From contig APJY01000001.1 of the NCBI GenBank assembly GCA_000389735.1, forward strand, positions 310,001 through 374,000: a stretch of 64,000 nucleotides of DNA, in the 5' to 3' direction. This document shows positions 6,398-52,651 of this stretch, piece after piece. The notes beneath the pieces were generated by a model. It was not told where the DNA came from. It ran no database searches and was given only the letters and a program-made list of their open reading frames with translations. Positions within the stretch are counted from its first letter, which is position 1; the number at the start of each line of letters is the position of its first letter. This DNA comes from Sulfolobales archaeon Acd1 (lineage in GTDB: Archaea; Thermoproteota; Thermoprotei_A; Sulfolobales; Sulfolobaceae). Position numbers and translations under genes: made by a program.

Positions 6398-6417
6398 GTG
6401 GAAAGCGGAGCTACCTT

Positions 6418-6425
6418 ATTTAAAA
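6418..6425 (-). promoter_or_regulatory. TATA box for the HEAT-like gene
   Basis: TTTTAAAT on the minus strand is centred about 25 bases before the ATG at 6397, the spacing expected for a leaderless transcript. Confidence 0.6.
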
Positions 6426-6481
6426 TGACAATGTACGTACTCAGTATTTTCTTGTTGGTTTTTATGCGGGGTGTTTCACGT

Positions 6482-7204: not shown

Positions 7205-9790
7205 CTAGCTTCTGCTCTTCCTTCTCCTCATTCCCACCAGCGTCAGGAGGGCCATAATGGCTATTATGACCGCTATCAGGCCGTACACATAGGGGGGTTG
7301 CAATATCAGCTGTTCGAACGACGGCGAGACCTGGACGTAGATCGTCATGGACTGTTCGAACGGGTAAAGGGAGCCCGTCTGGTTCCACACCGCTATGAGA
7401 GCGACGGGTACCTTGCCCGCCGGAATGTCGCTGGCCGTATCGACTATAAACGTCACGTTAATGGCCTGGCCTGGTTTCAGATCGCCGGCGAAGAACTTCG
7501 AGGCTGTAAGGCCCATGAGGGGGTTAGTGGAGCTCACATGCGGGTAAATGTAGTTATTTGGACCTAGTGTCAGGATCAGGTTCTTCACCGTGACGTTACC
7601 CACGTTCTCTATTTCAATGGTCAGCGGTACCCCCGAAGCCCCTCCTGTGAGGGATCCATATACGCCCACAACCCTCAGCTGGGCCTCAGGCTTGATCGTG
7701 ACATTGAACGTGGACGAGTACTCCCCACCGTCGTACTTAACGGTGAACTGAGCGGGATAAGTGCCGGGCCTCGTGTCGTTCGGGACGGTGATCAGGAAGG
7801 TCACGTTTACGGGCTTGCCTGGAGGGATCGCGCCTAAATTAATCACCTTCTGTCCGACCACCTCCAGGGGAGTGTTTATGGCGACTGACGCGTTGTAGGC
7901 CATCCCTTGACCGTAGTTAGTCACGATTAACGTCAGCTGGGAGTACTCGTAGCCCTGGAAGATCTGAGGAGGATACGTGACCAGGTTCACGGCCAAACTG
8001 GGGCCGTAAACGGTCACGGGAACCTCCAGGGTCGTCACGTGACCGTAACTGCTCACGTTCAACTGTATGTAATACGTCCCGGGAGTTGCGTTGGGGAAGA
8101 CGCTGGCCGTAACGGTGGCCTCGCTGTAAAGGCCCGCGGGAATCGCACCTAAGCCTAGAACGGTCTGCGAGAACTCGAACGGGTACTCCACGCTCCTCAG
8201 GGTTATCGTCACGTTGCTCATCGCGACCGTCCCGAGGTTCCTGATTACGAAAGTCAGCGGGACGTCGGTTTCGCCTGGCGAAGCGGCCATTGGGGAGCTG
8301 GTTGTCCCCCAAAAGGCCTGAGCCTGCAGGCCCTGGTAGCCCGTTATTGGGACCCTCAGGAGGACGGTCTTGCTCACGCCGTTGAAGTAAGTCAGCGTTA
8401 GGGGAACGGTGATCACGCCTTGAGGGGCTGAGGGGGAAACGGAGGCCACAACCGTTAACTGAAACGGCGTTCCTGGGGGTAACGTGCCTACGTTGGCTGA
8501 GGGCTGGTAGAACGTAATGAGGCTGGTGTTGTAGAACTGGATCGTCACGTTGGTCAGGGTGGCCGTCCCCGCGTTGGTCAACACTATCGTGAGGGGATAG
8601 TACGTCACCCCAGGGGCGGCCTGTATGGGGTTGCTCGGACTCCCCCAGAATACCTCCGAGTCGATCGTGGCGTAGCCCACAACGCTCACCTGCATGGTGG
8701 CGTTTATGCCTAGGTTCCCGTTGAAGACCACCCTCACGGGGACATCGTAAACTCCCGGCTGTAGGGACGAGTTGACCGAGGCCGTAACTGTTTGATAGTT
8801 GAACTGTCCTGCGGGCACAACGCCTATACTTACGGGGTTCTGGCTTAACGCGATCACATCATTCTTGAGCACGTATACCGTAACGTTATAGAGAGTCGTC
8901 GTCCCCAAGTTCTTGACCACCAGAGTTAGTGGGACGTTCTGTTGCCCGGGCATAACCACTATCGGGTCACTCAGCGAGCCCCACACCGAGAAGACACCGA
9001 CGGACGTCGCGCCGGTAACTGGAACCTGCACATCAGTGGTATAGCTTAGGCCGTTATCGTACATGATTTTGATTGGTACGTTGTAGACTCCCTGACTGGT
9101 CGAGAGGCTCACGTCAGCTAAAAGTACTGCCTGCACCTCGGTTCCCGGCGGGACTACGCCGAGGTACGAATAGTCCTTGGTGAAGTTTATGTAGGCCGTG
9201 TTATAGGCGACCACGGTCACGTTGTAAGCGGGCGAATTACCATCGTTAATGATTAAGATGGTCAACGGGAGATCCTGAGATCCTGGCGACGCTATAGTGG
9301 GACTACTTGGCGTTCCCCAGGTCGCCGAAACCACGAAAGTGGAGTATCCCAACACCAGTACAGGAACGCTAACGTACGCCACCGTGGGAACCGGGTTGCT
9401 CCCCACGTAATACGTAACCTCAAGAGTCACGTTGTGGTAGCCGGGAGTCGCCTGAGACGACACGTTGAAGAAGAAGACGGTCTTGTTGAACCAGTGGTAG
9501 GCCGATAGCACGGGGAGGTGGACGCTTTGTTGAAAGGACGGCGTGAAGACGGCCGACTGTTGCGGAGCAATAGTGACGTCGGTGACGTTAATCAGGGAGG
9601 TGATGTTGAACTGTATGGGCACATAGGGCTCACCCGGCGATATTATCTGGACTTTCGGCTCGGCCAGAACTATGAAGGGAGCGTCGCCGCCTTGAGCCTG
9701 GGTTGGGATGTTAACCGATGAGGCAACGATATATGCTAATCCAAGTAATATTATTACAATCAATGAAATCGATATATCTTTTCTTTGCAT
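7205..9790 (-). CDS. Large secreted membrane-anchored protein of CARDB-like repeats
   Basis: An 861-residue protein with a signal peptide or N-terminal helix (about 8-27), a long extracellular region and a C-terminal membrane helix (about 835-855) followed by RRRKSRS. The extracellular part is built of roughly 100-110-residue Ig-like repeats. Each opens with a motif like SxxWGTPSSPxxASPG, continues with PLTxxIxNxGTxxxxNVTV, and ends with PPGTxxxxTVxASVxxxxxPGxYxVPVxxxYxxG. Related repeats occur in COG1361/CARDB and NEW3-type archaeal surface proteins. At least seven units can be read. Many NVT/NST sequons suggest heavy N-glycosylation. The likely role is cell envelope structure or a scaffold for another surface protein; no enzyme motif is seen. 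Confidence 0.85.
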   Translation of the reverse strand: MQRKDISISLIVIILLGLAYIVASSVNIPTQAQGGDAPFIVLAEPKVQIISPGEPYVPIQFNITSLINVTDVTIAPQQSAVFTPSFQQSVHLPVLSAYHWFNKTVFFFNVSSQATPGYHNVTLEVTYYVGSNPVPTVAYVSVPVLVLGYSTFVVSATWGTPSSPTIASPGSQDLPLTILIINDGNSPAYNVTVVAYNTAYINFTKDYSYLGVVPPGTEVQAVLLADVSLSTSQGVYNVPIKIMYDNGLSYTTDVQVPVTGATSVGVFSVWGSLSDPIVVMPGQQNVPLTLVVKNLGTTTLYNVTVYVLKNDVIALSQNPVSIGVVPAGQFNYQTVTASVNSSLQPGVYDVPVRVVFNGNLGINATMQVSVVGYATIDSEVFWGSPSNPIQAAPGVTYYPLTIVLTNAGTATLTNVTIQFYNTSLITFYQPSANVGTLPPGTPFQLTVVASVSPSAPQGVITVPLTLTYFNGVSKTVLLRVPITGYQGLQAQAFWGTTSSPMAASPGETDVPLTFVIRNLGTVAMSNVTITLRSVEYPFEFSQTVLGLGAIPAGLYSEATVTASVFPNATPGTYYIQLNVSSYGHVTTLEVPVTVYGPSLAVNLVTYPPQIFQGYEYSQLTLIVTNYGQGMAYNASVAINTPLEVVGQKVINLGAIPPGKPVNVTFLITVPNDTRPGTYPAQFTVKYDGGEYSSTFNVTIKPEAQLRVVGVYGSLTGGASGVPLTIEIENVGNVTVKNLILTLGPNNYIYPHVSSTNPLMGLTASKFFAGDLKPGQAINVTFIVDTASDIPAGKVPVALIAVWNQTGSLYPFEQSMTIYVQVSPSFEQLILQPPYVYGLIAVIIAIMALLTLVGMRRRKSRS

Positions 9791-11208: not shown

Positions 11209-13422
11209 CTAAGCCCTATTACTAATAAGAACGTTCAGAAGAGACCTGGCTGCCTCTCTGAACGCCTTCTCCGCGTTAGAGCTACCTCCCAAGTTGAGGG
11301 CCACGGCGGTCTGGGACCAGCTCCTCCCCTGAAGCACCCTGGCGGCCATTAACGCTAGGCTTTCCTCGCTGAGGGGCAAATCGTCGAGACTTAGAGCCTT
11401 TAGGAGCAGCTTGTGATAGGCGTGGGCGACGGCGTTGTAGGGGACCTCTCCGTCTAAGTACCTCTCCGCAGCCCTGAAGTCCTCCTCGACCGCTTCGACG
11501 TTCCAGCTCAGCGGCCCCGTGGACTTGAGCAACAAAGCCAACAGCTTGGGGTTCATTTTGTAGTAAACCTGATGCGCCGTTAGTACGAGCCTCTCCTTCA
11601 GCCTGGAGTTGAGCCTTCTGACTAGTTCCGTAACGTTGGGCCTTAGGCCCTTGAGCACAATTATGGAAAAGCCGGCGAGAGCTTCGTTGCCCCTGGAGGT
11701 CACGTAAACTGGAAGGTAGCCGTTCTTGACCCAAAAGGACAGGACTCCGTAGTCCCCCACGAAGGACGAACCGATCCAGTCGAGACCCTCGGAAGCGGCG
11801 AGCTCCTCGGCCTTCCTTAAAAGTTGGGACCCGAAGCCCTTCCTCTGAAACCCCTCGAGCACCGCTATCCTCATGACCCTTAGTCCGGAGAGCCTTCCGA
11901 ACTCCTTCAGACCTAGGAAGCCCACTATCCTTTGGGGGATCAGGTGGCCCGGGTTCTCCTCCCCCTTCATTAGTTTCTCCGTTTCGCTTTCGTTCAGACC
12001 GCCCTCGTAAACGAGCTGAGCAACACCAACGGCTTTCCCCTCGTGGAAGTTCACCAAAACCCTCTGGAACTCCATGTCCAGGAGGAACATCAGGTCGTCC
12101 GGGGAGTTCCTATAATGGGCGGTGAGCAAGATCGAGTAAGCCGACCTGAGGAGGCTCTCCGAATTGACCAACTCCTCCCTGGAGACCTCCCTCACGCCCT
12201 CTGATTCCCCTACTACCTTCCCCTGCTCGACCTTGAGGAGGAAGGCGTCGTTGACGAAGGCCTCAACTGGATCACCGTGCGGGAACCTTATGGGCTCTTC
12301 CATAGTAACGTGCTTGACTAAGTGACTTTCCTTAGCCCTCTCGAGGAACTTCCTGAAGGCTTTCCCTGAGCCTTCGTAGCCGAAGGTGGTGGAGGTCATT
12401 ATCACCTTTCTCCACTTCCTCAGGGCCTCTTCCAACAGCTCGTTGGAAATGGCGGCGAACTCGTCGATTACCAACAAGTCACCTTCGGCGTAACTCGCCA
12501 TATCCGGCGGGAGCCATTCCGCCACAGAGCTCCCGAACCTAACTGCCCTCATTAGGCCGCTCTTCGCCCTCAGGGCCTCAATCCCCTTAAGGGCTGAGGC
12601 GCCCCTGAATACCTCCTGGGAGTTCAGCAGGGACGGGGAAGTCACGACGGCTCTAAAGCCCTCATTGCCCTTGAGTAAGCTCCCCACTAAAAGGCCGGTG
12701 ACGAAGCTCTTCCCCCTCCCCCTAGGGGCTGTTATCACGAGAGCCCTAGGATCTTCGGAGTGGAACAGGAAGTCCGACTCCTCCAGGACCTTAAGCTGGT
12801 CGTTCGTCACCCTCACGCCCTTAAAGTTCCTCCACTCAACGATCCTTGGGGGCCTGAGGTAGGGCTTGAAAATCACGCCCTCATCGTTAACGTAAACCAG
12901 TCCCTCCTTGGCCTCGAGCAATTTCCTGAACCTCTCCTCGAACAGGTCACTTACCCTACCGTGTCTCACGAGAGTGCTCTTGTAGAGCTTGCTCGGGGAG
13001 GAGATGTCGTCCGTGTAGATAATCGCGAAACCCCCTCCCCTCACCACGTCAATCAGCCTGGCCAGATAGTTGGGCCTGAAGTCGTCGACGCAGTCCAGGA
13101 CGACTAAATCGTACGTGGTTCCCAAGACGGACTCGGAGCTCGAGTAGTCGACATCATCGAGTTCGCTCCAGAAGCCCTTAACTGCCTTCAGCCTGTCTTT
13201 CGCCCCCTCCTTCCAGGGGTGAAAAGCGTAGAGGACCTTCTTGAGCCCGAGCCTCTCCTTCGCCGACTTGAGAAGCTCCAGCAGGTGATCCATATAGTCT
13301 CGGGACTCTATAACGACCAGAGCCCTGTAGCCCAAGCTCAGTTGTCGGACTAAGCCCTCAGCAAGGATCCAGCTCTTCACGTTTCCGTCCTTGTAAACCT
13401 CATCACGGGACTCGCTAACCAA
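11209..13422 (-). CDS. tmcA: tRNA(Met)/RNA cytidine acetyltransferase TmcA
   Basis: A 737-residue protein with the TmcA/NAT10 order: N-terminal DUF1726-like region, a helicase-type ATPase with Walker A APRGRGKS (232-239) and Walker B LLVIDEFA (about 316-323), then a GNAT acetyltransferase with the acetyl-CoA motif GFQRKGFGSQLL and a C-terminal tRNA-binding region. The enzyme uses acetyl-CoA and ATP to make N4-acetylcytidine in RNA, which in hyperthermophiles stabilises tRNA and rRNA. Translation starts at the TTG at 13422; other starts would shorten the N-terminal domain. It is first in a pair with the SpoIIM-like gene and lies 25 bases from the stop of the MMPL gene upstream. Confidence 0.93.
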   Translation of the reverse strand: MVSESRDEVYKDGNVKSWILAEGLVRQLSLGYRALVVIESRDYMDHLLELLKSAKERLGLKKVLYAFHPWKEGAKDRLKAVKGFWSELDDVDYSSSESVLGTTYDLVVLDCVDDFRPNYLARLIDVVRGGGFAIIYTDDISSPSKLYKSTLVRHGRVSDLFEERFRKLLEAKEGLVYVNDEGVIFKPYLRPPRIVEWRNFKGVRVTNDQLKVLEESDFLFHSEDPRALVITAPRGRGKSFVTGLLVGSLLKGNEGFRAVVTSPSLLNSQEVFRGASALKGIEALRAKSGLMRAVRFGSSVAEWLPPDMASYAEGDLLVIDEFAAISNELLEEALRKWRKVIMTSTTFGYEGSGKAFRKFLERAKESHLVKHVTMEEPIRFPHGDPVEAFVNDAFLLKVEQGKVVGESEGVREVSREELVNSESLLRSAYSILLTAHYRNSPDDLMFLLDMEFQRVLVNFHEGKAVGVAQLVYEGGLNESETEKLMKGEENPGHLIPQRIVGFLGLKEFGRLSGLRVMRIAVLEGFQRKGFGSQLLRKAEELAASEGLDWIGSSFVGDYGVLSFWVKNGYLPVYVTSRGNEALAGFSIIVLKGLRPNVTELVRRLNSRLKERLVLTAHQVYYKMNPKLLALLLKSTGPLSWNVEAVEEDFRAAERYLDGEVPYNAVAHAYHKLLLKALSLDDLPLSEESLALMAARVLQGRSWSQTAVALNLGGSSNAEKAFREAARSLLNVLISNRA

Positions 13423-29189: not shown

Positions 29190-29783
29190 CTAAACCCTCT
29201 TCTTTTCCTCCTTGCTTATCCTGTCAGCCACCTTCAAGATCCTCGGGTAACCCCTTTTCGCCAAATCTATACAGTCCTGTAGGTCCGTGAGGTTCCCGGG
29301 GGAGTAGTAGTACTTCCCCCACTTCACTCCCCTTTTCTCGCCGTCTATCACCACGTACTCTATCTCGCCCTCTCTCACGATTTCCCCAGAGAGCCTCGAC
29401 TTGGCCACGCCTATGGTGGGCACCTGGAGGAGGACTCCTATTACCGTGGCTATCCCGCTCCTCCTCGGGTGGGCCAGGCCGTGGCCGTCCACCAATATCA
29501 GGTCGCAGGAGAGGTCGTCGAGGGCCTCAAGCATCAAGGGGGCCTCCCTCATGAAGAGGAATCCCGGGATGTAGGGGAACTCAACCCTTCCCACGAACTT
29601 CCTGACCTCCAGCTTCCCTCCCTCCTCCCTTACCGCGACCGCTACGCCTAAGTCGCCCTTGTAGGCTACGTCGAGGGCGCAGAGGCTCCTCACGTTCTCC
29701 AACCCTAAGTGGGACTGCCTGTAGTTCCTCGCCACCAGGTGCTGGACGAGCTCGAGGAACCTCAGGGTGTGGGTCTCGACCAA
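29190..29783 (-). CDS. nfi: Endonuclease V
   Basis: A 197-residue protein of the Nfi family: [14 protein letters not shown] with the first metal-binding Asp, [19 protein letters not shown] (the PYIPG wedge motif), [18 protein letters not shown] with the second catalytic Asp and His, and VAKSRLSG. The enzyme nicks DNA one base after deaminated adenine (hypoxanthine), which matters at high temperature. The ATG at 29783 lies 22 bases inside the 3' end of the phosphatase gene, so the two form an operon. Confidence 0.94.
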
Positions 29784-30226
29784 GACAACTCAAGCTCAAG
29801 GAGTAGCTTGAATTGGTTAAGGGTTTGTACCGCCCCCGGCCTGTACTTCCTGACCTCCTCGACCGCCTGCTGGGCGTTGAGGCTCTCCGTAAGCATTAGG
29901 TAACCCGCTATTACGGTGCCCGTCCTGCCCATCCCGCCGACGCAGTGTACGAGGTTCCCCTTCCCCTTACCTAGCCACCTGAAGATCTCGAAGAACTGCT
30001 CTTTATTCGGGGCGTGGCCGTCGGGGATGGGGGAGTGGAGGTACTCGAAACCCTTTTCCTTGAGCAACGAGAAGTAGTACGCGGCGTTTCCCCAGGCCTC
30101 CTCGATCTCCCAGTCTTCGGCCAGCACCAACACCCTCCTGACCCCTTCGGACTTCCAGATGTCGAGCTCGTCGACGCTGTAAGGCATTTGAGAACCACCG
30201 ATGATCCCCTTCCTCACCCAGTACAA
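29762..30226 (-). CDS. Dual-specificity / tyrosine protein phosphatase
   Basis: A 154-residue cysteine phosphatase with the P-loop [10 protein letters not shown] (C95, R101) and the general-acid Asp in PIPDGHAP (D69). Length and sequence match the single-domain Sulfolobus PTP (SSO2453), which starts MYWVRR. This one starts MYWVRK from the TTG at 30226, with GAGGTG six bases upstream as ribosome site. The GTG at 30235 is an alternative. It dephosphorylates phosphotyrosine and perhaps phosphoserine proteins. It is coupled to endonuclease V by a 22-base overlap. Confidence 0.92.
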
Positions 30227-30342
30227 GCTCTTCACCTCTCAGTAGATCCGCTGCTCCTCACCGTTCAGCCTTAGCTTTCTCTATGACTCGCCACTTATAG
30301 GTTGCTATGCAGTGAGGAACGCTAACCTCGACTAAAGCCCCC

Positions 30343-31101
30343 TCAAGAGTTCTTGACTGCCGAAGCGGTCTTCGTTTGGGCGCTCTGGGCTCCCTGGTCG
30401 CCCTGATAGGTTCTATAATTCTTAGAGTCCCTCGAGTCCCTCTCGCATATGCTCGTGAAGGGACAGAACATGCAGTTCCACGACATTTCCTGGTTAAGCT
30501 TGGCCTCCGGCTCCGGCAAGCTCTTATTCTTCAAGGCGTTGTGTAACGTCTTCGCCCTGTCCAGGGTCTCCTTGAAGAGCTGAGGGTCGTAGCTGACCTC
30601 GAACTCCTCCATCTCGAAGTCGCTCCTGTCAACGTAGAGCAGGATCCCTTTGGCGTTGGGAAAAGCCCTTAAGTAGACGTTCAGTTGTGCCACGTGTTCC
30701 TTCTTCGGTATCCATCTATTCTCTAAAGCCTTCTTCAAGTCGTCAACTGTTTTTACCTCCACCACGTACCTCTGCCTCCCCACCTCCAGCACTATTACGT
30801 CGTCGGCCCTACCCGAGAGGACTATCCCCTCGTCCTCGGGGTGGGGAATCCTTATGGGGACCTCAGAGAGCACCTTCGCCCCCTCGATCTCCTTCAGCAG
30901 GTCAGCGATGTAGTCGTGGATCACCGTGCCCAGCACTAGCCCGCCGAACTTCATCACGTTGAGGTGAGGTATCGTTCTCTCGTAGTACTGCTGCCTGAGA
31001 CACTTCCAGAGCTGCGACGGGTAATACTCGCCCTCGAAGGGAGGGTAGTAATTGGCCACCTCGTCGAGAAGCCTCCTGGTAATGATTTCCTTAAGCACCA
31101 T
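30343..31101 (-). CDS. Cas4-like PD-(D/E)XK exonuclease with Fe-S cluster
   Basis: A 252-residue RecB-type nuclease. The active site can be followed: H62, D100 or D101 in GRADD, E115-V-K117, and the QxxxY motif at Q139. Four cysteines, C34 and C210, C213, C219, are placed as [4Fe-4S] ligands as in Cas4 and the Sulfolobus homologue SSO0001, a 5'-to-3' DNA exonuclease. No cas gene or CRISPR repeat is nearby, so it is a stand-alone repair-type member. The frame is open further to 31188, but that would overlap the divergent gene. The ATG at 31101 gives the family length. Confidence 0.9.
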
Positions 31102-31143
31102 AATGTAGAAGGAATAATACTCCGAATATCTACTTTTCCGTTC

Positions 31144-32073
31144 ATGGAAGCGGTAGTAACAGGCGGGGCTGGCTACATCGGCGGCCACCTGGTGGACGAA
31201 CTCATATCGAGAGGCTACAGGACGATCGTCTACGACGACTTCTCCTCTGGGAGCTACGTGAACCCGAAGGCTCTCTACAGCAAGGTTGACCTGAGGAATT
31301 CCGAAGGCCTAACCTTTCCGAAAGGGTCGATCGTCTTCCACCTGGCGGCCAACCCGGACGTCAGGACCTCCATGTACAACACCAAGGAGCACTTCGAGAG
31401 GGACGTAGTGGTTACCTTCAACGTGCTTGAGGCAGCTAGGAGGAGCGACGCCTTCTTCTTCCTCTTCGCCTCCTCCTCCACGGTCTACGGGGAGGCGGAC
31501 AAGCTCCCTACTCCAGAGGATTACCCCAAAAGGCCGATATCCTTCTACGGCCTGTTCAAGCAGGTAGGGGAGGAGATGGTGGAGTTCTACTCAAGGAACT
31601 ACGGCATTAGGGCCGTTTCCCTGAGGTTCGCCAACATAACCGGGGGCAGGGTGAGCCACGGAGTGGTCGTAGACTTCGTCAGGAAGCTCCTGAGGAATAG
31701 GGAGGAGCTGGAGATCCTTGGGAACGGGAAGCAAAAGAAGAGCTACTTGTACATCACGGACCTAATCGAGGCCATATTCGTTCTCCTAGAGAAGTTCAGG
31801 GGAGTTTACGACGCGTTCAATGTGGGTAACCTGGACTGGATAACTGTGGACGAGATAGCGAGGATAGTGGAGGAAGAGATGGGCCTGAAGCCCAGGCACG
31901 TTTATAAGGACTTCGGGGAGGGCAGGGGTTGGGCGGGGGACGTGAGGCTTATGCTCCTCGACATCAATAAGATAACGAGTCTGGGGTGGAGGCCCAGGTA
32001 CGGCTCTGCCGAGGCCGTTAGGTTTGCCGTCAGGGACGTGCTCAGGTCTTTAAATGTCGGACTACCGCATTAA
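31144..32073 (+). CDS. NAD-dependent NDP-sugar epimerase (GalE-like)
   Basis: A 309-residue extended short-chain dehydrogenase/reductase with the NAD motif [10 protein letters not shown] (6-15), the SSSTVYGE active-site strand and the YxxxK pair in SFYGLFKQV. It resembles UDP-glucose 4-epimerase or related sugar-nucleotide enzymes; the exact sugar is uncertain. The frame is open upstream to 30964, but the ATG at 31144 gives the usual start [10 protein letters not shown]. It is divergent from the Cas4-like gene with only 42 bases between starts. Its stop is 33 bases before tRNA-Leu. Confidence 0.9.
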
Positions 32074-32105
32074 CGTTTTTATGCCTAGCGGATAAGAGGA
32101 GAATT

Positions 32106-32190
32106 GCGGGGGTGCCCGAGCCAGGTCAAAGGGGGCGGACTGAGGCTCCGCTGGCGTAGGCCTGCGTGGGTTCAAGTCCCACCCCCCGCA
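32106..32190 (+). tRNA. tRNA-Leu (GAG)
   Basis: An 85-base class II tRNA with a long variable arm (TGGCGTAGGCCTGC). The acceptor stem GCGGGGG pairs with CCCCCGC, followed by A. The anticodon stem GCGGA/TCCGC encloses the loop CTGAGGC with anticodon GAG (32142-32144) for CUC codons. The T arm GTGGG-TTCAAGT-CCCAC is perfect. No intron and no encoded CCA. Confidence 0.96.
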
Positions 32191-32209
32191 TTGGGGGCTC
32201 AGCCCCCAA
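32191..32209 (+). terminator. Hairpin directly after tRNA-Leu
   Basis: TTGGGGGC (32191-32198) and GCCCCCAA (32202-32209) form a perfect 8-bp stem with a 3-base loop, beginning at the first base after the tRNA. It resembles the hairpin after tRNA-Gly and may mark the transcript end or a processing site. Confidence 0.55.
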
Positions 32210-32281
32210 AGCATAATCGAAGTCGAGGCTCCGGATCGCCAGCCTCACCATCAGTTACTAATGACTTTCGTTTCCTAAAGG

Positions 32282-32325
32282 TCTCACGTCGTGAGATTCA
32301 TTAAATCAAAGGTATAAATAATACC
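32282..32325. promoter_or_regulatory. Palindrome and TATA box before the tat operon
   Basis: TCTCACG-T-CGTGAGA (32282-32296) is a perfect 15-base palindrome 15 bases ahead of GGTATAAATAATACC (32311-32325), which holds the TATA box (TATAAATA) inside GGTAT/ATACC arms. The position just upstream of the promoter suits an activator or repressor site. The predicted start of transcription is near 32342, giving a leader with a GGAGG ribosome site (32350-32354). Confidence 0.5.
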
Positions 32326-32367
32326 TCATCACGAATTTAATCTGGGGGTGAAGGAGGAACGTTCTCC

Positions 32368-32658
32368 ATGAGTCCTGGCGACATCGCGGTTTTGATCATA
32401 GTGGCACTTGTACTGTTCTTTGGGGCCAACAAGCTTCCCGAGCTGTTCAGGTCTATGGGTAGGGCAGTAGGAGAGTTCAAGAAGGGCAGGATGGAGGCCG
32501 AGTTGGAATTGCAGCAGATGCAACAGGCCTCCCAGCAGGGTCAGCAGACTCCAAATCCCCAGGTCTCAACTCAGCCCTCAAGGGAGGCCGAGTTAGAACA
32601 GAAGATAAGGGAGCTGCAGGCCGAGCTTGAGAGGCTGAAGGCCCAGAAGAGCCAGTGA
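32368..32658 (+). CDS. tatA: Twin-arginine translocase subunit TatA
   Basis: A 96-residue protein with the TatA plan: a short N-terminal membrane helix (DIAVLIIVALVLFFG), the FFGANKLPEL hinge, an amphipathic helix (FRSMGRAVGEFKKG) and a Gln-rich then coiled-coil C-terminal tail (EAELEQKIRELQAELERLKA). It forms the pore element of the Tat system, which exports folded proteins. The first of three tat genes. The ATG at 32368 follows a GGAGG site. Confidence 0.93.
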   Translation: MSPGDIAVLIIVALVLFFGANKLPELFRSMGRAVGEFKKGRMEAELELQQMQQASQQGQQTPNPQVSTQPSREAELEQKIRELQAELERLKAQKSQ

Positions 32659-32683
32659 CGGGAGGACTAAGGGAAGATGGGTT

Positions 32684-33055
32684 ATGATATCCAACTTAGA
32701 AGACACTTTAGTCATTCTTTTGGTCGCCTTACTCCTGTTTGGGGGTGACAAGAAGGCCGTAGAGTCGGTAAAGAACCTGGGCAAGATGTGGGGGGACTTC
32801 AGGAGGAGGCAAGAGGAGCTCAAGAGGGAGTTGATAAGGGAACTGAACGAGGCAGGCGAGCCGATGAGGCAAGTGGGGGGCGAGGTCTCTAAAGGAGTTT
32901 CGGAGGCCGGTCAAACTTACTACGTCAGGCCTTACTCCAACTTCACACCTGGCAACAGTGAAGAAAGGATAAGGAAATTGGAGGAGGAGATAAGGAGGTT
33001 ACAGGCCGAGCTTGAGAGGCTGAAAGCCGTTGAGCGAAAGGACGGCAAGAACTGA
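32684..33055 (+). CDS. Second TatA/TatB-like subunit
   Basis: A 123-residue protein with the same plan as the TatA before it: membrane helix (NLEDTLVILLVALLLFGG), a hinge with FGGDKKAVES, an amphipathic helix (VKNLGKMWGDFRRRQEEL) and a C-terminal coiled coil ending in IRRLQAELERLKA, nearly the same tail as TatA. An Asp/Glu-bearing N-terminus and longer tail suggest a TatB-like role in substrate recognition with TatC, but TatA and TatB cannot be separated by sequence alone. It lies 25 bases after tatA and overlaps tatC by 26 bases. Confidence 0.85.
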   Translation: MISNLEDTLVILLVALLLFGGDKKAVESVKNLGKMWGDFRRRQEELKRELIRELNEAGEPMRQVGGEVSKGVSEAGQTYYVRPYSNFTPGNSEERIRKLEEEIRRLQAELERLKAVERKDGKN

Positions 33056-33875
33056 GCAGGTGAAGGACGTAGAGAGGCCCTTATTGGATCACATCTTAGA
33101 GCTGGCTAGGAGAGTAAGGAGGATCCTCGTATTCCTCCTATCGTTTTTCCTCTTCTTCTTCGCCTTCGGCTACACCACAATTCAGGTCGGGAACTACGTT
33201 ATACCGGTCCCCTACCCCAGCCTCTTCGATAGCTTTTCGGTCATCATGGTCAGGTGGATAATCTACCACGTCCTCCCTCCAGGACTGAAGCTCATCAACC
33301 TGAACCCCTTAGACCCTATGATAGCCTCGGCCTACTTCTCGTTCTTCTTGGCTGTGTTCTTCTCCATACCTGTGATAATCAGGGAGGCTTGGGCCTTCGT
33401 TTCGCCCGGGCTTTACGAGCACGAGAGGAGGCTCTTCAAGAGGGTCATAGTGCCCGCCCTTCTGCTCTACGCGGGAGGGGCCGCCTTCGCTTATTTCGTC
33501 ATAATCCCACTCATGATGGAGTTCGTTCTAATATTCACTAGCGAGCTGGGAGTTGAGCCCACTTTGAGCCTGAGGGCTTTCGCGAGTACGGTCATCACCA
33601 TGATGACGGTCACGGGCTTAGCCTTCGAGTACCCCTTAGCTATGGCTGTAACCACCTACTTGGGCCTAGTGAAGGCGAAGACGTGGTTCGAGAACTGGAG
33701 GTGGGGTGTAATGGGGGCCTTCATAATAGCCTGGGCTATATCCCCTGGAACCACCGGCGGAGTTATCGAGACTACCATAGGGTTGATACTTTCGGTGCTT
33801 TATTTCGTGGGGGCTTACGCGGCCAAGGCCGTAGAGAGGAAGAAAGTGAGGGAAAACAGGCAATTGAAACGTTGA
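33030..33875 (+). CDS. tatC: Twin-arginine translocase subunit TatC
   Basis: A 281-residue protein with six membrane helices and the TatC features: cytoplasmic N-terminal ERPLLDHILELARRV, IIREAWAFVSPGLYEHERRLFKRV between helices 2 and 3, and FEYPLAMAVTTYLGLV. TatC recognises the twin-arginine signal peptide. The TTG at 33030 (MSERTARTEQVKDVERP) is the start, 26 bases inside the previous gene, so translation is coupled. The last gene of the tat operon; a stem-loop begins at its stop codon. Confidence 0.94.
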   Translation: MSERTARTEQVKDVERPLLDHILELARRVRRILVFLLSFFLFFFAFGYTTIQVGNYVIPVPYPSLFDSFSVIMVRWIIYHVLPPGLKLINLNPLDPMIASAYFSFFLAVFFSIPVIIREAWAFVSPGLYEHERRLFKRVIVPALLLYAGGAAFAYFVIIPLMMEFVLIFTSELGVEPTLSLRAFASTVITMMTVTGLAFEYPLAMAVTTYLGLVKAKTWFENWRWGVMGAFIIAWAISPGTTGGVIETTIGLILSVLYFVGAYAAKAVERKKVRENRQLKR

Positions 33876-33929
33876 CTTCTCTTCGGGAGGCGGAATCGAT
33901 TAGGAAGCTGAGAAGTCGGGGGGACCCCC
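33874..33929 (+). terminator. Stem-loops after tatC
   Basis: GACTTCTC (33874-33881) and GAGAAGTC (33910-33917) form a perfect 8-bp stem around a 28-base loop that starts inside the tatC stop codon. It is followed at once by GGGGGG-A-CCCCC (33918-33929). The two together could end the operon or be the end structure of a decayed mobile element. Confidence 0.4.
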
Positions 33930-34287
33930 ACGTAAGCAAGCATATCTGCATCGGGCGGCCGTTAGTGAAATTAAAGCCGTCAACGATACGCTTCTTCCTA
34001 AAACGTCGATGTACATTAAATCGCTCAGCAGAGTCGACGCCGGCTATGCGTTCCCTGAGATTTAGGGGTTACCAAGAGCTAGGTTTCGCTACGAGTCACC
34101 GAAATTGTATGACGGTTCTGGGACTGTGGGCCAAGTGAGGTGGTGGCGTCTTTCGGCTCCAGCTTGACGGGCTTAACCGGTCTTCCAGCTAGCTCTGGGA
34201 AGTCCTCAGCGTACCAAGCGACGATCGCAGGCCTCGCGGGTCAACCCTTTATTAGTTACGCTTCCGAAAGTATTCTTTCGTTAGGGA
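33930..34287. other. Gene-free stretch with possible decayed element
   Basis: No intact gene is found between tatC and the KaiC-like gene. The plus strand carries a frame continuing from a tatC-overlapping reading frame with an odd basic tail (SLREAESIRKLRSRGDPHV). The minus strand holds a 54-codon start-less frame (34079-34240). The proline- and charge-rich tails are reminiscent of transposase C-termini, but no end repeats or catalytic motifs are seen. Confidence 0.35.
34079..34240 (-). pseudogene. Start-less coding-like fragment
   Basis: Fifty-three open codons end at TAG (34079-34081) and are closed upstream by TGA (34241-34243), with no ATG, GTG or TTG in the first 45 codons. The translation includes AIVAWYAEDFPELAGRPVKP and KLEPKDATTSLGPQSQ. 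It looks like the tail of a broken gene, with good codon use. The Pro-rich tail could be from an IS605-type OrfB, but this is a guess without a search. Confidence 0.3.
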
Positions 34288-35082
34288 ATGAGGAGGCTTT
34301 CTACGGGAATACCTCAGTTCGATGCCCTCATTGAGGGCGGTGTGCCGGAGGGGTTCTTCGTCGCCCTCACAGGCGAGCCCGGCACCGGAAAGACCATATT
34401 CTCCCTTCACTTCGTGGCACAGGGCCTTAAGGAGGGTGATCCGTGCATTTACGTCACTACCGAGGAGAGCAGGGAGTCCATAATAAGGCAGGCCAAGCAG
34501 TTCAATTGGGACTTCGAGGAGCACATGGAGAAGAAGCTCATCATAATAGACGCGTTAATGCGGGAGAGGGAGGACGAGTGGTCACTGATGGAGCTCACTC
34601 CCGAAGAGTTAGTCCAGAAGGTCATACAGGCCAAGCAGAAGCTGGGATACGGTAAGGCGAGGCTCGTTATCGACAGCGTCTCCGCCCTCTTCTTGGACAA
34701 ACCCGCCATGTCCAGGAAGATAAGCTATTACCTGAAGAGGGTGCTGAACAAGTGGAACTTCACCATTTACGCCACCTCACAATACGCCATAACCACGAGC
34801 CAGGCCTTCGGCTTCGGAGTAGAGCACGTGGCTGACGGCATAATAAGGTTCAGGAGGGCCGTGAGGGGAGGAGAGCTCAGGAGGTTTATCTTGATAGAGA
34901 AGATGAGGCAGACCAACCACGACAGGCACGTTTGGGAGATAGACGTCAAGCCCGGAAGGGGGATAGTGTTGGTTAGGAGGCTTGAGGAGAGGAGGGAGGA
35001 CTACGCTCTGCCCAGGGACGTCCAGGAGAGGATCAAGCGGGCCAGCGAGATCAACGAGAGGTTCATCCCTGAGGACGTCTGA
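34288..35082 (+). CDS. KaiC-like RecA-superfamily ATPase
   Basis: A 264-residue single-domain ATPase. It has Walker A GEPGTGKT (29-36), FVAQGLKEGDPCIYVTTEES (KaiC-type strand), Walker B LVIDSVSALFLD, and a C-terminal FRRAVRGGELRRFILIEKMR beta-hairpin. It belongs to the archaeal KaiC/RadA-paralogue group (aRadC-like), proposed to act in recombination control or signalling; the precise role is unknown. The ATG at 34288 has only a weak upstream promoter. Its last 69 bases are part of an 81-bp sequence repeated exactly at 36216-36296, so the gene itself is intact while its 3' end has been duplicated downstream. Confidence 0.9.
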   Translation: MRRLSTGIPQFDALIEGGVPEGFFVALTGEPGTGKTIFSLHFVAQGLKEGDPCIYVTTEESRESIIRQAKQFNWDFEEHMEKKLIIIDALMREREDEWSLMELTPEELVQKVIQAKQKLGYGKARLVIDSVSALFLDKPAMSRKISYYLKRVLNKWNFTIYATSQYAITTSQAFGFGVEHVADGIIRFRRAVRGGELRRFILIEKMRQTNHDRHVWEIDVKPGRGIVLVRRLEERREDYALPRDVQERIKRASEINERFIPEDV

Positions 35083-35094
35083 GGTCGTTGGCCT
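35014..35094 (+). repeat. Direct repeat, left copy (3' end of KaiC-like gene)
   Basis: Eighty-one bases identical to 36216-36296, offset 1202 bp. The copy covers the last 69 bases of the KaiC-like gene, including its stop, plus 12 bases beyond. Identity extends three bases further left with one mismatch (C at 35013, T at 36215). It marks the left border of the AT-rich block. Confidence 0.98.
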
Positions 35095-35158
35095 CAGGAT
35101 AGGCTAACTTGGCTGAGATTCCTGTAAACCCAGCACCTAATATTATTGTCCTAACCAT
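35095..35158 (-). pseudogene. Truncated start of a flavoprotein/NAD(P)-binding oxidoreductase gene
   Basis: From the ATG at 35158 the minus strand reads MVRTIILGAGFTGISAKLAY, a Rossmann start with the dinucleotide-binding motif GAGFTG. This is typical of FAD/NAD(P)-dependent oxidoreductases of the sulfide:quinone reductase or NDH-2 type. After about 21 codons the sequence runs into the 81-bp direct repeat and hits a stop inside it, so only the first 7 percent or so of a normal gene remains. It is a cut slice, not a functional gene. Confidence 0.65.
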
Positions 35159-35295
35159 TATAACTTATTTTCATAACTGCTACCTTATACATGTTATCTA
35201 CAATACTTTTCTACAATTTCTTTTAGGATCTGAAAATATAGAAAATTGTATAATTGAACTATTTAATAAAAATTGTTAGCTTAAAAGGAAATAGC

Positions 35296-35907
35296 TTACA
35301 AAATAGGGGGAACCCACTTTGAGAAGCCTACTAAATGTTCTGGGACAGCTGCAATTCCTATATAGGCGGCGATTATTCCCGCAAGTATTAGTAATATTGC
35401 GTCTATAATTAGGAAAATCTTTCCATATTTGGCACCGTCAAGGAATAATGACACTGGATAGAAAAATATCGAAGCTAATCCGGTTAATGCATATAACGCA
35501 AGTAATGCTGCTGGTTCTAAAGTCATATTGTGCATGAAACCAATTACGCCATAATAAATCGTTACTAATCCAAACAATATAGCCATAAAGCCTAAGTGTT
35601 CAAGTTTATAGTCGTTCTTTATACTAACTGCTATTCCAATTAGTCCTAAACCTAATACCGGATATAAGTCGTAGAAAAGTATATTGTAGCTACCAGGTAG
35701 GGGCCACGTCATCAAACCATAAAGGCCGGTAATGGCCATAAGCCCTCCTAGTGTAAGTAAAGGAATGTATTGAGCTTTCAGAGAATTCCTATAATCCGTT
35801 ACAGTACTATGAACTCTATAGGTTTTAATTAAACCGTAAGCCAATGTTATGAAAGCGATTGCCATAACTATTAACTGATTAGTAAGTATATCTACGAATA
35901 ACGCCAT
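35296..35907 (-). CDS. DUF981-like membrane protein
   Basis: A 203-residue protein with six predicted membrane helices. The segment GLYGLMTWPLPGSYNILFYD (then LYPVLG) is characteristic of the DUF981 family (PF06168), archaeal and bacterial membrane proteins of unknown function. A GGTGA ribosome site lies just before the ATG at 35907. The codon choice is AT-rich throughout (many ATA, TTA, AAT), unlike every gene outside the block, which points to recent transfer from an AT-rich Sulfolobales relative such as Sulfolobus or Acidianus. The frame is intact. Its original operon partners on either side are truncated. Confidence 0.82.
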   Translation of the reverse strand: MALFVDILTNQLIVMAIAFITLAYGLIKTYRVHSTVTDYRNSLKAQYIPLLTLGGLMAITGLYGLMTWPLPGSYNILFYDLYPVLGLGLIGIAVSIKNDYKLEHLGFMAILFGLVTIYYGVIGFMHNMTLEPAALLALYALTGLASIFFYPVSLFLDGAKYGKIFLIIDAILLILAGIIAAYIGIAAVPEHLVGFSKWVPPIL

Positions 35908-35944
35908 TCACGGTCACCAATTATAATTGTCTCATCTAAAGTAT

Positions 35945-36212
35945 TTATACCTTAGCTAAAGCGCATACACTATTTGTAACTATAAATTCTTCTACGCCGC
36001 TTTTATCTATCTTCTCTTTCTTAGCCTTCATAACTAAATCGGAAAGTTTAGGATGTGAAAGCCAATAATCACTACCTGCACCGCACTCAAAATAAGGATC
36101 CTCCATTTCGCTTATTTTAACGCCGAGTCTTAAGGCTAATTCTTTTATCTACTTCGTAAGTCCTTGCCTATATGCATGACAAGGATAATGGGATAGTAAA
36201 TGTCACATTTAT
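35945..36212 (-). pseudogene. C-terminal remnant of an Fe-S oxidoreductase (CCG domain)
   Basis: The minus-strand reading gives HLLSHYPCHAYRQGLTK, a TAG stop (36149-36151), then IKELALRLGVKI, EDPYFECGAGSDYWLSHPKL and EEFIVTNSVCALAK, ending at TAA (35945-35947). PCH and ECGAG with a final VTNSVC are the landmarks of the cysteine-rich CCG domain found in heterodisulfide reductase B, LutA and glycolate oxidase Fe-S subunits. The start of the gene is missing beyond the repeat border, and an in-frame stop breaks the rest. An ATG at 36106 would allow a 53-residue peptide. Confidence 0.75.
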
Positions 36213-36215
36213 CCT

Positions 36216-36296
36216 AGGGACGTCCAGGAGAGGATCAAGCGGGCCAGCGAGATCAACGAGAGGTTCATCCCTGAGGACGTCTGAGGTCGTTGGCCT
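36216..36296 (+). repeat. Direct repeat, right copy
   Basis: An exact 81-bp copy of 35014-35094, here detached from the KaiC-like gene. It leads directly into host-type sequence with the promoter of the nicotinamidase-like gene. Together the two copies look like the left and right junctions of an integration at a gene 3' end. Confidence 0.98.
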
Positions 36297-36349
36297 GGCT
36301 TCGGGATTAAAGTATTTTTGGGCTGAGGGACAAGTGTTCAGTTAGTGGT

Positions 36350-36949
36350 ATGACGAAAGTAGAGGTTCCTCAAATTAACAGGGTTCAGAAGGTGGAGCTC
36401 AGGCCCTCGGACACAGCGTTGCTAATAGTGGACATGCAGAACGACTTCGTCGACCCCAAGGGCGCCCTATTCGTGCCCTCCTCCAGGAACTCCGTCGAGC
36501 CGATCAGGAGGTTGATAACTAAGTTCAGGGAGGCAGGGGCCTTGGTGATATACACCCAGGACTGGCACATGAAGGACGACCCGGAGTTCAAGATCTGGGG
36601 GGTCCACGCCGTGGCGGGCACGTGGGGGGCGGAGATAATAGACGAGCTGAAGCCCGAGAAGGACGACATAACGATCAAGAAGTACAGGTACGACGCGTTC
36701 TTCGAGACCCCTTTGGATTACGTGCTGAGGGTCAAGGGGATAAGGAACCTGGTGGTGGTTGGCACCGTAGCCAACATCTGCGTGCTCCACACGGCCGGCT
36801 CGGCGGCCTTGAGGTGGTATAACGTTGTCGTCCCGGAGGACGGGATATCGGCCCTGACGGAGTTCGACCAGATCGCCGCGCTCAGGCAAATAGATTTCCT
36901 TTATAAGGGTAAGATAACCACGAGCGACGGAGTGGTTTTAACCGTATGA
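36350..36949 (+). CDS. Isochorismatase-family hydrolase, probable nicotinamidase
   Basis: A 199-residue cysteine hydrolase with the catalytic triad D28 (VDMQNDF), K111 (IKKYRYDAFF) and C144 (NICVLHTA). D71, H73 and H86 are placed as metal ligands as in nicotinamidase/pyrazinamidase PncA. It would release nicotinic acid and ammonia from nicotinamide for NAD salvage. The metal-ligand set favours nicotinamidase over other isochorismatase-like enzymes. The ATG at 36350 lies about 30 bases after AAAGTATTTTTG. Its stop overlaps the next ATG (ATGA). Confidence 0.87.
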   Translation: MTKVEVPQINRVQKVELRPSDTALLIVDMQNDFVDPKGALFVPSSRNSVEPIRRLITKFREAGALVIYTQDWHMKDDPEFKIWGVHAVAGTWGAEIIDELKPEKDDITIKKYRYDAFFETPLDYVLRVKGIRNLVVVGTVANICVLHTAGSAALRWYNVVVPEDGISALTEFDQIAALRQIDFLYKGKITTSDGVVLTV

Positions 36950-37917
36950 AGTGGGTCGCGATAGTCCACAACGACTTCGACGGGACTGCGAGCGCCGCCG
37001 TTTACGCCAGGGCGGTGGGGGAGCTACCGACTTCTTCTCTCTTTACAGAGCCTACCAGGCTGGGGAAGCTCCTCCAGGGCTTCGAGCTCAGGGATGCGAA
37101 AAGGATAGTCATAGCTGACCTGGGGATAAACGCCTCAACCTTCGACGTGATCCTGAAGGAGGTCAAAAGGCTCGTATCCCAGGGGGCTGAGATTCAGTGG
37201 TTCGACCACCACGTGTGGAAGGAGGAATGGAAGAAGACGCTGTCTGAGGTCGGAGTTCAGGTCTATCACGACACCACTACCTGTGGGGCGGGAGTGGTCC
37301 ACAAGGTTATGAACCCTAACGACGAAGTGTCGGAGGTTATAGCGAGGGCTGACTGTAGCGTCGACATTTGGCTACACGACTACCCGCTGGGGGAGAAGCT
37401 GAGGAGGGTGATAGAGAACAGGAGGGAGTTCGAGTGGAAGAGGCACGTGATGGAGAAGTTCTTCAGGGGTGTAGTTTGGGATGAGGAGTTCGAGAGGATC
37501 CTGATCGAAACAGCCAACAGGGAGCTCAAGGGCTACAACGGGCTCAAGGACTACGCTAGAGTGATAGAGGTGAACGGGGTGAGAGGTGTGGTAGCGGTCA
37601 GGTGGAAGGGGCCTCCGGACATAAGCTACGCGAGCCAATACCTGATGGCGAGGACTGGGGCCAAGTTCTACGCCTCCGTGAACGGCAAGAGCATCTCCTT
37701 CAGGAGCTCCAGCATAGAGGTGAGGAGGTTCGCCGAGGCCTTGGGTGGGGGAGGCCATCCCTTAGCTGCGGGGGCCGGGCTAAAGGCCCCCCTACTGAAG
37801 TACGTCCTTTACAAGTTGGGCTACAGGAAGCCGATGCTCGACTGGGCCGTTAAAGTGGTGGAGGAAACCGTGAGGAAGGTAGGGATAGTCGAGTATCAGA
37901 AGACCAAGGCTCAGTAG
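36946..37917 (+). CDS. DHH-family phosphoesterase
   Basis: A 323-residue protein with the N-terminal DHH domain motifs IVHNDFDGTASA (first Asp pair), IADLGIN and FDHHVWKEEW (the DHH triad), and a C-terminal DHHA1 domain with the glycine-rich nucleotide-binding loop GGGGHPLAAGA. Related enzymes are NrnA-like nanoRNases, c-di-AMP phosphodiesterases and RecJ-like nucleases; the archaeal substrate is uncertain. It is coupled to the nicotinamidase-like gene through an ATGA overlap. Its 3' end overlaps the convergent pcm gene by 7 bases. Confidence 0.88.
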   Translation: MKWVAIVHNDFDGTASAAVYARAVGELPTSSLFTEPTRLGKLLQGFELRDAKRIVIADLGINASTFDVILKEVKRLVSQGAEIQWFDHHVWKEEWKKTLSEVGVQVYHDTTTCGAGVVHKVMNPNDEVSEVIARADCSVDIWLHDYPLGEKLRRVIENRREFEWKRHVMEKFFRGVVWDEEFERILIETANRELKGYNGLKDYARVIEVNGVRGVVAVRWKGPPDISYASQYLMARTGAKFYASVNGKSISFRSSSIEVRRFAEALGGGGHPLAAGAGLKAPLLKYVLYKLGYRKPMLDWAVKVVEETVRKVGIVEYQKTKAQ

Positions 37918-50932: not shown

Positions 50933-51181
50933 ATGAGGGTTAGAATAGTGTACTGTAGGAGGTGCGGCTATCAGGATAGAGCCCTCGAACTCGCCAGGGA
51001 CATTATAACTTTCTTCGACGACGTGTCGGTTGAGCTGGTCCCGGGAGACAACGGGGTTTTCGACGTCTTCGTGAACGACGAGTTAGTGCACTCCAGGTTC
51101 CAGACCAGGAGGTTCCCCGAAAGCGAGGAGATCCTTTCGGAGGTAGGGAAGAGGAGGGCCGTGCTCGGAGGCTATAAGTGA
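50933..51181 (+). CDS. SelW/Rdx-family thioredoxin-like protein
   Basis: An 82-residue protein with a CxxC redox motif at YCRRCGYQDRA after the first strand, and the VFVNDELVHSRFQTRRFPES segment. This is the Rdx family (PF10262) of SelW/SelT/SelH-type proteins, with Cys in the place of selenocysteine. The family is thought to act in thiol redox regulation. It is likely cotranscribed with the NifX-like gene 14 bases upstream. Confidence 0.82.
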   Translation: MRVRIVYCRRCGYQDRALELARDIITFFDDVSVELVPGDNGVFDVFVNDELVHSRFQTRRFPESEEILSEVGKRRAVLGGYK

Positions 51182-51230
51182 GGTTTACTTCCCTAACCAG
51201 CCACCGCATATTGAACATTAATCTAGCGGT

Positions 51231-51716
51231 TCAGAGCCGCTTCAGCACCTTCTGGTTCAGGAGGAGCTCGAGGGATCCCTTTCCTTCCTTAGCGTTCATC
51301 TTTATCACCGCTACCCCACCTTTCTTCAGCTCGACTTCGCCCCCCGTGACGAGCCTGATGAACCTCGACAGGTACGGCTCGTGCCCCACTACGAGTATAG
51401 TAGTGTTACACCCCTTCTCGTCCATCCCCCTCAGCCTGTTCAGGAGCGCGGAGGGGTCCTGGTCGGGCTCGAGCTCCTTAATAGTCTCGACCTTAACGTC
51501 GTCCTCAAGCTCTTCACTTATGGCTTGCGCGGATTGGATCGCCCTGACGTAGGGGCTCGTGAGGATCCTATCGGGCCTGAACCCCAGGAGCTCAACGAGG
51601 TTAGCGACCCTCCTCATTTGGATAACTCCCTTCTCCACAAGCCTTCTCTCCTTGTCCTCCTTCCCCTCAGCCTTGGGCTCAGCGTCTCCGTGCCTAACCA
51701 ATATCAGCTCGATCAC
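51231..51716 (-). CDS. Histidine phosphatase, SixA-like
   Basis: A 161-residue member of the histidine phosphatase superfamily with the catalytic LVRHGDAEPK (RHG) and the second His in VVGHEPYLS. The short, lid-free form resembles SixA, a phosphohistidine phosphatase. In archaea the true substrate is not known. The ATG at 51716 is used. It is convergent with the Rdx gene and divergent from the metallo-hydrolase. Confidence 0.85.
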   Translation of the reverse strand: MIELILVRHGDAEPKAEGKEDKERRLVEKGVIQMRRVANLVELLGFRPDRILTSPYVRAIQSAQAISEELEDDVKVETIKELEPDQDPSALLNRLRGMDEKGCNTTILVVGHEPYLSRFIRLVTGGEVELKKGGVAVIKMNAKEGKGSLELLLNQKVLKRL

Positions 51717-51817
51717 GTGGTAAAGGAGTTCCCCTACTCGCTTAAACGTTTTAAAGTCCTGAGGACCACGAGACTTTCCCCTGGTCAGTTTATAAACCGT
51801 CTCTCGCTCCCTCTCCT

Positions 51818-52651
51818 GTGGAGGTAGCGAAGAGAGTCAGGATAACCGTACTGAGCGACAACTTCACCTCGACCATCATTCCTCCCCTAATAGGGGAGTG
51901 GGGCTTCTCAGCCTTCATAGAGGCAGACGGGGTCGGAGTCCTCTACGACGTGGGCAACTCCGGGCTTCCGGTCGTTCACAACGCCGAGGCGTTGGGAATA
52001 GACCTGAGGAGGGACGTGGACTACGTGATCCTCTCCCACGGGCACTCGGACCACACCGGAGGCCTGGCTAACCAGAAGCTGAGGGAGGCCTTGAGGGGGA
52101 AGGTGGTCATAGCGCACCCGAACGTTTCCGAGAAGAAGTTCCTCAGCTGGAGGGGAAGGCTGGACTACATAGGGATCCCGCTCAATAAGGAGGAGATGGA
52201 GAGGGAGTTCAGGCTAGTCCTGACCAGGGAACCCCTGGAGTTCGCTAAGGGTGTGATGTTCGCAGGTGAAGTCAAGAGCTACGGCTTCCCGAGGTATACT
52301 AAGGGGCTCCTGAAGTCCTCCTCGGAGGGGGTCGAACAGGATGATCTGCTCGACGACGTCCCGCTTTACGTGAACACGCCGAAGGGGCTGGTGATAATCA
52401 CGGGCTGTGGTCACTCGGGGATACTGAACATAATCAGGCACGCGAAGGAGGTGACCGGAGTCGAGAAGGTCTACGCCGTCCTAGGCGGTTTTCACCTCCT
52501 CTCCTCGCCCAGCGAACACGTGGACGAGGTCATGAAAGTCCTGGAAGGAGAGGCAGACGTGATAGGTCCCGCCCACTGCAGCGGCTTCAGGGCTAGGCTG
52601 ACCCGGAAGTTCATAGACGCGGGAGTGGGGAGCGTAATAGACATAGCGTGA
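51818..52651 (+). CDS. Metallo-beta-lactamase-fold hydrolase
   Basis: A 277-residue MBL-fold protein with the zinc motif SHGHSDHTGG, later metal His in ITGCGHSGILNI and GPAHCSG, and the FTSTIIPPLIGEWGFSAFIE start typical of COG1237. Members of that group include a ribofuranosylaminobenzene phosphate synthase-like enzyme of methanopterin pathways and uncharacterised hydrolases. The natural substrate here is unknown. It starts at the GTG at 51818. Confidence 0.85.
   Translation: MEVAKRVRITVLSDNFTSTIIPPLIGEWGFSAFIEADGVGVLYDVGNSGLPVVHNAEALGIDLRRDVDYVILSHGHSDHTGGLANQKLREALRGKVVIAHPNVSEKKFLSWRGRLDYIGIPLNKEEMEREFRLVLTREPLEFAKGVMFAGEVKSYGFPRYTKGLLKSSSEGVEQDDLLDDVPLYVNTPKGLVIITGCGHSGILNIIRHAKEVTGVEKVYAVLGGFHLLSSPSEHVDEVMKVLEGEADVIGPAHCSGFRARLTRKFIDAGVGSVIDIA

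Follow-up and report, generated by a model that had tools for sequence, protein, structure and literature searches.

An AT-rich composite block between host direct repeats in a Sulfolobales archaeon, probably a scar of microhomology-mediated capture from another genus

Introduction

How can a genome gain a piece of another chromosome when neither homology nor a mobile element brings it in? Such uptake of foreign genes is rarely visible in archaea since its scars blur with age. In eukaryotes, templated insertions and microhomology-mediated break-induced replication leave serial pieces joined through short microhomology, with a duplication at the point where copying returns. In bacteria, transforming or conjugated DNA can enter by homology-facilitated illegitimate recombination (HFIR), an illegitimate join that needs a homologous anchor at one end (PMC3240628). 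Within the Sulfolobales and other Thermoproteota, the Ced and Ups systems exchange cellular chromosomal DNA between cells (PMC9905601). A further activity is known from Saccharolobus islandicus, whose primase PriSL can hold strands together by as few as 2-4 GC pairs, continues synthesis over discontinuous templates and contributes to microhomology end joining in living cells; in the part of that report that deals with the products, the events are mostly indels of 1-2 bp and not kilobase insertions (PMC12019639).

Here, we describe a block of DNA that invites comparison with all of these. The window analysed is the whole stretch of 64,000 nucleotides at G000:C1:310001-374000, where G000 is the host genome and C1 its contig 1; positions without a prefix are those of the window. 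The host genome (1.51 Mb in 8 contigs, 93.5% complete) belongs to the family Sulfolobaceae and is the sole member of its genus among 214 genomes of the order that were searched. Direct repeats were scanned over the whole of contig 1 (849 kb) and the whole of contig 2 (403 kb), two of the 8 contigs and 1.25 Mb together.

An AT-rich block between two copies of a host sequence

A direct repeat of 81 bp, identical at 81 of 81 bases, occupies 35014-35094 and 36216-36296, and grows to 84 nt with one mismatch once 35011/36213 are counted in. The two copies enclose 1121 bp of AT-rich DNA (35095-36215) with a GC content of about 0.35-0.37 against about 0.55 in the surroundings, while the repeat itself, at 0.62, is host-like. 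It consists of the final 69 nt of a KaiC-like ATPase gene (34288-35082, plus strand; TIGR03881; 73-84% amino-acid identity to orthologues across the family) and of 12 nt past its stop codon. The KaiC-like gene is intact, its 3′ end being preserved by the direct repeats, and the first gene after the block, an isochorismatase-like gene (36350-36949, plus strand; PF00857), is intact as well.

Read on the minus strand, the block contains a piece of an Fe-S (CCG) oxidoreductase gene, a complete DUF981 gene of 203 amino acids (35296-35907; PF06168, E = 1.3e-54) and, at its left edge, the first 20 or so codons of a Pyr_redox_2 flavoprotein gene. The initial annotation was right in essence when it described a captured block with all coding pieces on the minus strand, a whole DUF981 gene in the middle and only N-terminal flavoprotein codons at the left border. 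It had also regarded the Fe-S remnant as a C-terminal part with an internal TAG. The in-frame TAG is there (36149-36151, minus strand; TAT in the closest relative, G187), but the piece corresponds to residues ~240-327 of a 347-residue CCG-domain oxidoreductase, whose CCG domain spans 247-329, and it is cut at both ends with the last ~20 residues absent. It has a further disabling change, GGG at 36190-36192 (minus strand) where alignments with G187 show GG, which causes a +1 frameshift. Thus an undamaged DUF981 gene stands beside a fragment carrying both a stop and a frameshift. In a search of the whole host genome, the DUF981 gene of the block was the only one.

The block lies where the gene order of the host lineage has changed. 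In four relatives the DHH, isochorismatase, EndoV-like (a name given by reading) and a small gene all point away from the divergently oriented KaiC-like gene, in that order towards it, whereas in the host KaiC is followed by isochorismatase and then DHH, all in the same direction. None of the relatives examined has the isochorismatase-like gene beside the 3′ end of KaiC, and in the window (29199-37917) a galE-like gene, a tRNA-Leu gene and Tat genes come between KaiC and its usual neighbours. The right repeat links the end of KaiC to the DNA that precedes isochorismatase, so the host order either predates the capture or arose with it.

Three slices of a donor locus

Among the 214 genomes of the order, the best DNA match of the block is in G187, at two places 4.6 kb apart. 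G187 belongs, together with G188, to g6, a genus of Sulfolobaceae other than that of the host. When the block is aligned to 19.5 kb of the G187 locus (L104), it splits into three collinear slices, all on the same strand. Slice A (35095-35168, minus strand, its right limit lying within 35167-35169; 91% in local alignment) is the 5′ end of the flavoprotein gene and DNA upstream of it. Slice B (35169-35952, minus strand; 92%) comprises the whole DUF981 gene with about 45 bp upstream of it and, on the downstream side, further DNA and the terminal ~24 codons of an MFS gene in convergent orientation. Slice C (35953-36215, minus strand; 94%) is the CCG-domain part of the Fe-S oxidoreductase gene. On the reversed G187 locus the slices are at ~5978-6057, ~7205-7989 and ~12641-12905, respectively, a donor span of about 6.9 kb of which the block has these three slices only. 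Absent from the block are about 1.15 kb between A and B, taken up mostly by an MFS transporter gene on the opposite strand, and about 4.65 kb between B and C, with five genes on both strands in G187; by reading of their translations, without a family search, these are two lipoate ligases, a lipoyl synthase, a flavodoxin and a small membrane protein.

The same arrangement is seen elsewhere in g6. In G190, G191 and G193, too, the genes of the B-C gap stand between the Fe-S gene and DUF981, save that no small membrane protein was seen in G191. In G190 the MFS gene also adjoins DUF981. The three pieces were not found next to each other in G187, G190, G191 or G193. Because the gap genes are present in G187 and mostly in its g6 relatives, the spliced order is the derived one. 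It had been suggested that the block is a slice of a foreign operon and that a contiguous Fe-S - DUF981 - flavoprotein match would reveal its source. There is no such match: in G187 the three genes are separated by intervals of ~4.6 and ~1.1 kb in which genes of both strands lie. The source is therefore not an operon slice, and the block has two internal junctions besides its two borders.

The suggestion of a foreign origin fared better. The 91-94% DNA identity to G187 and the solitary state of the DUF981 gene in the host point to another genus of Sulfolobaceae as the source of the block. Between block and G187, the DUF981 gene has 37 base differences. Third positions account for 28 of these, and 8 amino acids are changed, a bias which indicates divergence under selection, such as a living donor lineage would undergo.

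A search of the host genome for the missing parts of the donor locus returned only two short weak matches, C5:4070-4138 and C4:14385-14412. Both correspond to a non-coding stretch of about 70 bp ahead of DUF981 in the donor locus (L104:11026-11095), which is 83% similar to the contig 5 stretch and partly to that on contig 4; ARAGORN does not call it a tRNA.

Similar sites in the host genome

Is the block a unique kind of site? Near-exact local direct repeats of at least 40 bp are rare in contig 1, and apart from the block they are found at two insertion sites that resemble it, at the contig end, in a pair of tRNA-Gln genes and inside an AT-rich island. At site 1, a 49-bp repeat (C1:4994-5042 and 6403-6451, 98% identical; L139:4994-6451) flanks 1.36 kb in which a low-GC gene of MscS type, 72% identical to G194, is accompanied by a high-GC open coding stretch of 70 residues that has no match in the family. 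At site 2, a 177-bp repeat (C1:31201-31377 and 33149-33325, 96%) is the 3′ part of a gene reading like a flippase, and the full extent of the composite insertion is G000:C1:31201-35149 (L140:11201-15149). Its insert is made of a 317-bp copy of the N-terminal part of the same flippase-like gene (96%), a 163-bp piece 82% similar to the next gene, which has a CBS domain, and 1.07 kb of DNA that resembles glycosyltransferase genes and is 94% identical to G188, the second g6 species. The two repeat copies at site 2 are 4% divergent, and every codon position is affected. Like the block, site 2 has discontinuous collinear pieces beside a host duplication. Thus the three sites have duplications of 49 bp (98%), 81 bp (100%) and 177 bp (96%), all around low-GC DNA and unrelated to each other in sequence.

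No block-like site was found in the 403 kb of contig 2, which indicates that the process is rare, nor in 400 kb of the control genome G194. Sites like the block are thus recurrent in the host but rare, and no more than that.

Some other places in contig 1 deserve a word of their own. The repeat pair at C1:680049 was considered as a further site and rejected, as it consists of two tRNA-Gln genes. The low-GC island at C1:50600-52600 (L141) has, in the right part of 51000-52600, an 81% match to G197 and no flanking direct repeats; C1:51000-52600 is possibly a transfer of another kind. The AT-rich island of 33 kb at G000:C1:611701-644400 (L191-L192), where GC falls to 0.26 and internal repeats lie near tRNA-like sequence, may be an integrated virus or plasmid. 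The contig begins with a 343-bp direct repeat (97%; G000:C1:1-898; L139), possibly a tandem repeat at which the assembly stopped.

Is the block a mobile element?

A foreign block flanked by direct repeats is what a transposable element or its miniature derivative would leave. However, there is no pair of inverted repeats at the two ends of the block, no integrase or transposase among its gene pieces, of which DUF981 is the sole complete gene, and only one copy in the host genome. Moreover, the length of the duplication differs at each of the three sites, and target duplications of transposons are usually far shorter than 81 bp. A transposon is hardly credible here.

A second kind of element would use the 3′ end of the KaiC-like gene as its att site, in which case the block is what remains of an integrated element and the 81-bp repeats are attL and attR. 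Indeed, integrases favour such positions, where the repeat is a gene 3′ end and the gene is left intact, and site 2 likewise duplicates a gene 3′ end. Still, intact host genes would be selected for in any case, and the repeats at the three sites are unrelated, that of the block being host-like in GC. In addition, the block has no integrase gene and is composed of three slices of ordinary chromosomal DNA. It has no match in the plasmid, phage and IMG/VR collections, the viral scan relying on exact shared peptides and so reaching close relatives only; a plasmid, phage or viral carrier was rejected on this result, within the same reach. We consider an att remnant very improbable. The view of the initial annotation that this is not a mobile element is borne out by the lack of mobile genes and ends, by the single copy in the host genome and by the absence of a match among the plasmids searched.

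Junctions of the block

At the left border, host DNA and slice A have 4 nt in common, GCCT (35091-35094), with no mismatch around; at the right border, slice C and the host share AGG, the first 3 nt of the right repeat copy. If host and donor positions are taken at random, at least 4 nt are shared in 1.6% of cases and at least 3 nt in 5.0%. The outer borders therefore look guided by microhomology, as far as G187 represents the donor sequence. Beyond these 4 and 3 nt G187 and the host diverge, so no homologous anchor is present at the ends of the insert, and both outer ends fall inside genes, as had been noted before. As measured on G187, the join of A to B shares 2 nt, and that of B to C about 1 nt within a stretch of imperfect similarity; since G187 is a relative of the donor, the inner joins are not callable as microhomology.

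Could such junctions have been made in the tube? Template switching during amplification, or mis-assembly, might have fused host DNA with that of a co-occurring member of the Sulfolobaceae. Chimeras formed by MDA arise via 2-21 nt of complementarity with intervening deletions, the same style of junction as in the block, although more than 85% of them are inverted (PMC1855051) while all slices of the block are direct and collinear. The assembly is split into 8 contigs and reaches 93.5% completeness, and site 2 mixes near-host DNA (96%) with DNA of g6, as DNA of a community would; four joins, on the other hand, would need to dominate the consensus, and the host genes on both sides are intact. 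The two disabling changes in slice C and the 4% divergence at all codon positions in site 2 are expected after ageing in vivo, but they could equally reflect strain mixtures or a pseudogene in the donor. On balance an artefact is unlikely, and the composite foreign insertion is probably real.

Another way to obtain exactly host 81 bp - insert - host 81 bp is a single homologous crossover between the chromosome and a circle of donor DNA that carried an 81-bp piece of host or near-host DNA, by which the homologous segment is left on both sides. Circularisation of incoming linear DNA followed by a single crossover is documented in E. coli (PMC3240628), and non-identical repeats such as those of site 2 are allowed. 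Such a circle, however, would first have to gain the 81-bp host piece at the same microhomology joins, which demands an extra illegitimate step, and neither such a circle nor a plasmid of this kind is in the searched collections. This route seems quite improbable to us.

A probable capture by break repair or template switching

The reading that we prefer, and hold to be probable, is that the block is a scar of illegitimate, microhomology-mediated capture of chromosomal DNA from another genus of Sulfolobaceae. Break repair or template switching fits the variable length of the duplications (49, 81 and 177 bp), the ends that cut genes, the presence of chromosomal DNA from more than one donor, and the microhomology; a transposase or an integrase does not. 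Passive capture, as the initial annotation put it, is still the best reading, with joining of the break-repair or template-switch type at GCCT and AGG.

In such an event, a host end just past the KaiC stop would be joined to donor DNA through the 4 nt of GCCT, and the other donor end would be joined back to the host 81 bp upstream through the 3 nt of AGG; a return at this point duplicates 81 bp of host DNA. This might happen when a break that has long overhangs is filled in, or when synthesis switches template to the donor and later returns to the host. It is to be noted, against capture, that a duplication of 81 bp demands an unusually long overhang or a return of the template. How the inner parts were lost can be imagined in two ways: a fragment of 6.9 kb may have been captured and later trimmed by two deletions, or the copying strand may have skipped forward on one template. 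The former order of events finds some support in the undamaged DUF981 gene next to a slice C with two disabling changes, as if the complete gene had been kept by selection. Site 2 is compatible with both.

Which enzyme could do this? The host has a gene of the PriS family, for the small subunit of primase, at G000:C1:822422, and by analogy with S. islandicus, PriSL would be a candidate for the enzyme behind the scar. As a more general proposal, in some Sulfolobaceae a template-jumping capture, plausibly by PriSL at breaks, may copy discontinuous slices of a foreign chromosome in one event and duplicate 50-180 bp of host DNA, with neither homology nor a mobile element. We put this forward as a tentative idea, rather doubtful in this full form. 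If it is true, it is a route of gene transfer that needs neither of the two. The block suggests that thermoacidophilic archaea such as the host can patch foreign DNA into their genomes without a mobile element. It is young enough to be read base by base, with donor locus, host, outer junctions and duplication length, and together with the two similar sites it makes the enzymology testable, for example whether primase, whose known products at breaks are small indels, can also insert foreign DNA by the kilobase.

Comparison with known systems

Microhomology end joining by PriSL resembles the block in its joins of 2-4 nt and its polymerisation on discontinuous templates, and comes from the same archaeal family, while the products given in the relevant part of that report are mainly 1-2 bp indels, against a kilobase insert with duplications of 50-180 bp in the host (PMC12019639). 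HFIR likewise lets foreign chromosomal DNA in through an illegitimate join; however, in place of its homologous anchor the outer joins of the block have only 3-4 nt in common, and a target duplication is present (PMC3240628). Exchange by Ced and Ups offers a possible route of entry, for the host by analogy, but accounts for import only and not for a join made without homology (PMC9905601). The eukaryotic events share with the block the serial pieces, the short microhomology and the duplication at the return point, whereas the block is archaeal, with the chromosome of another genus as its template. Illegitimate capture of foreign DNA is a known phenomenon, and the composite of three slices with a target duplication of variable length would be a variant of it.
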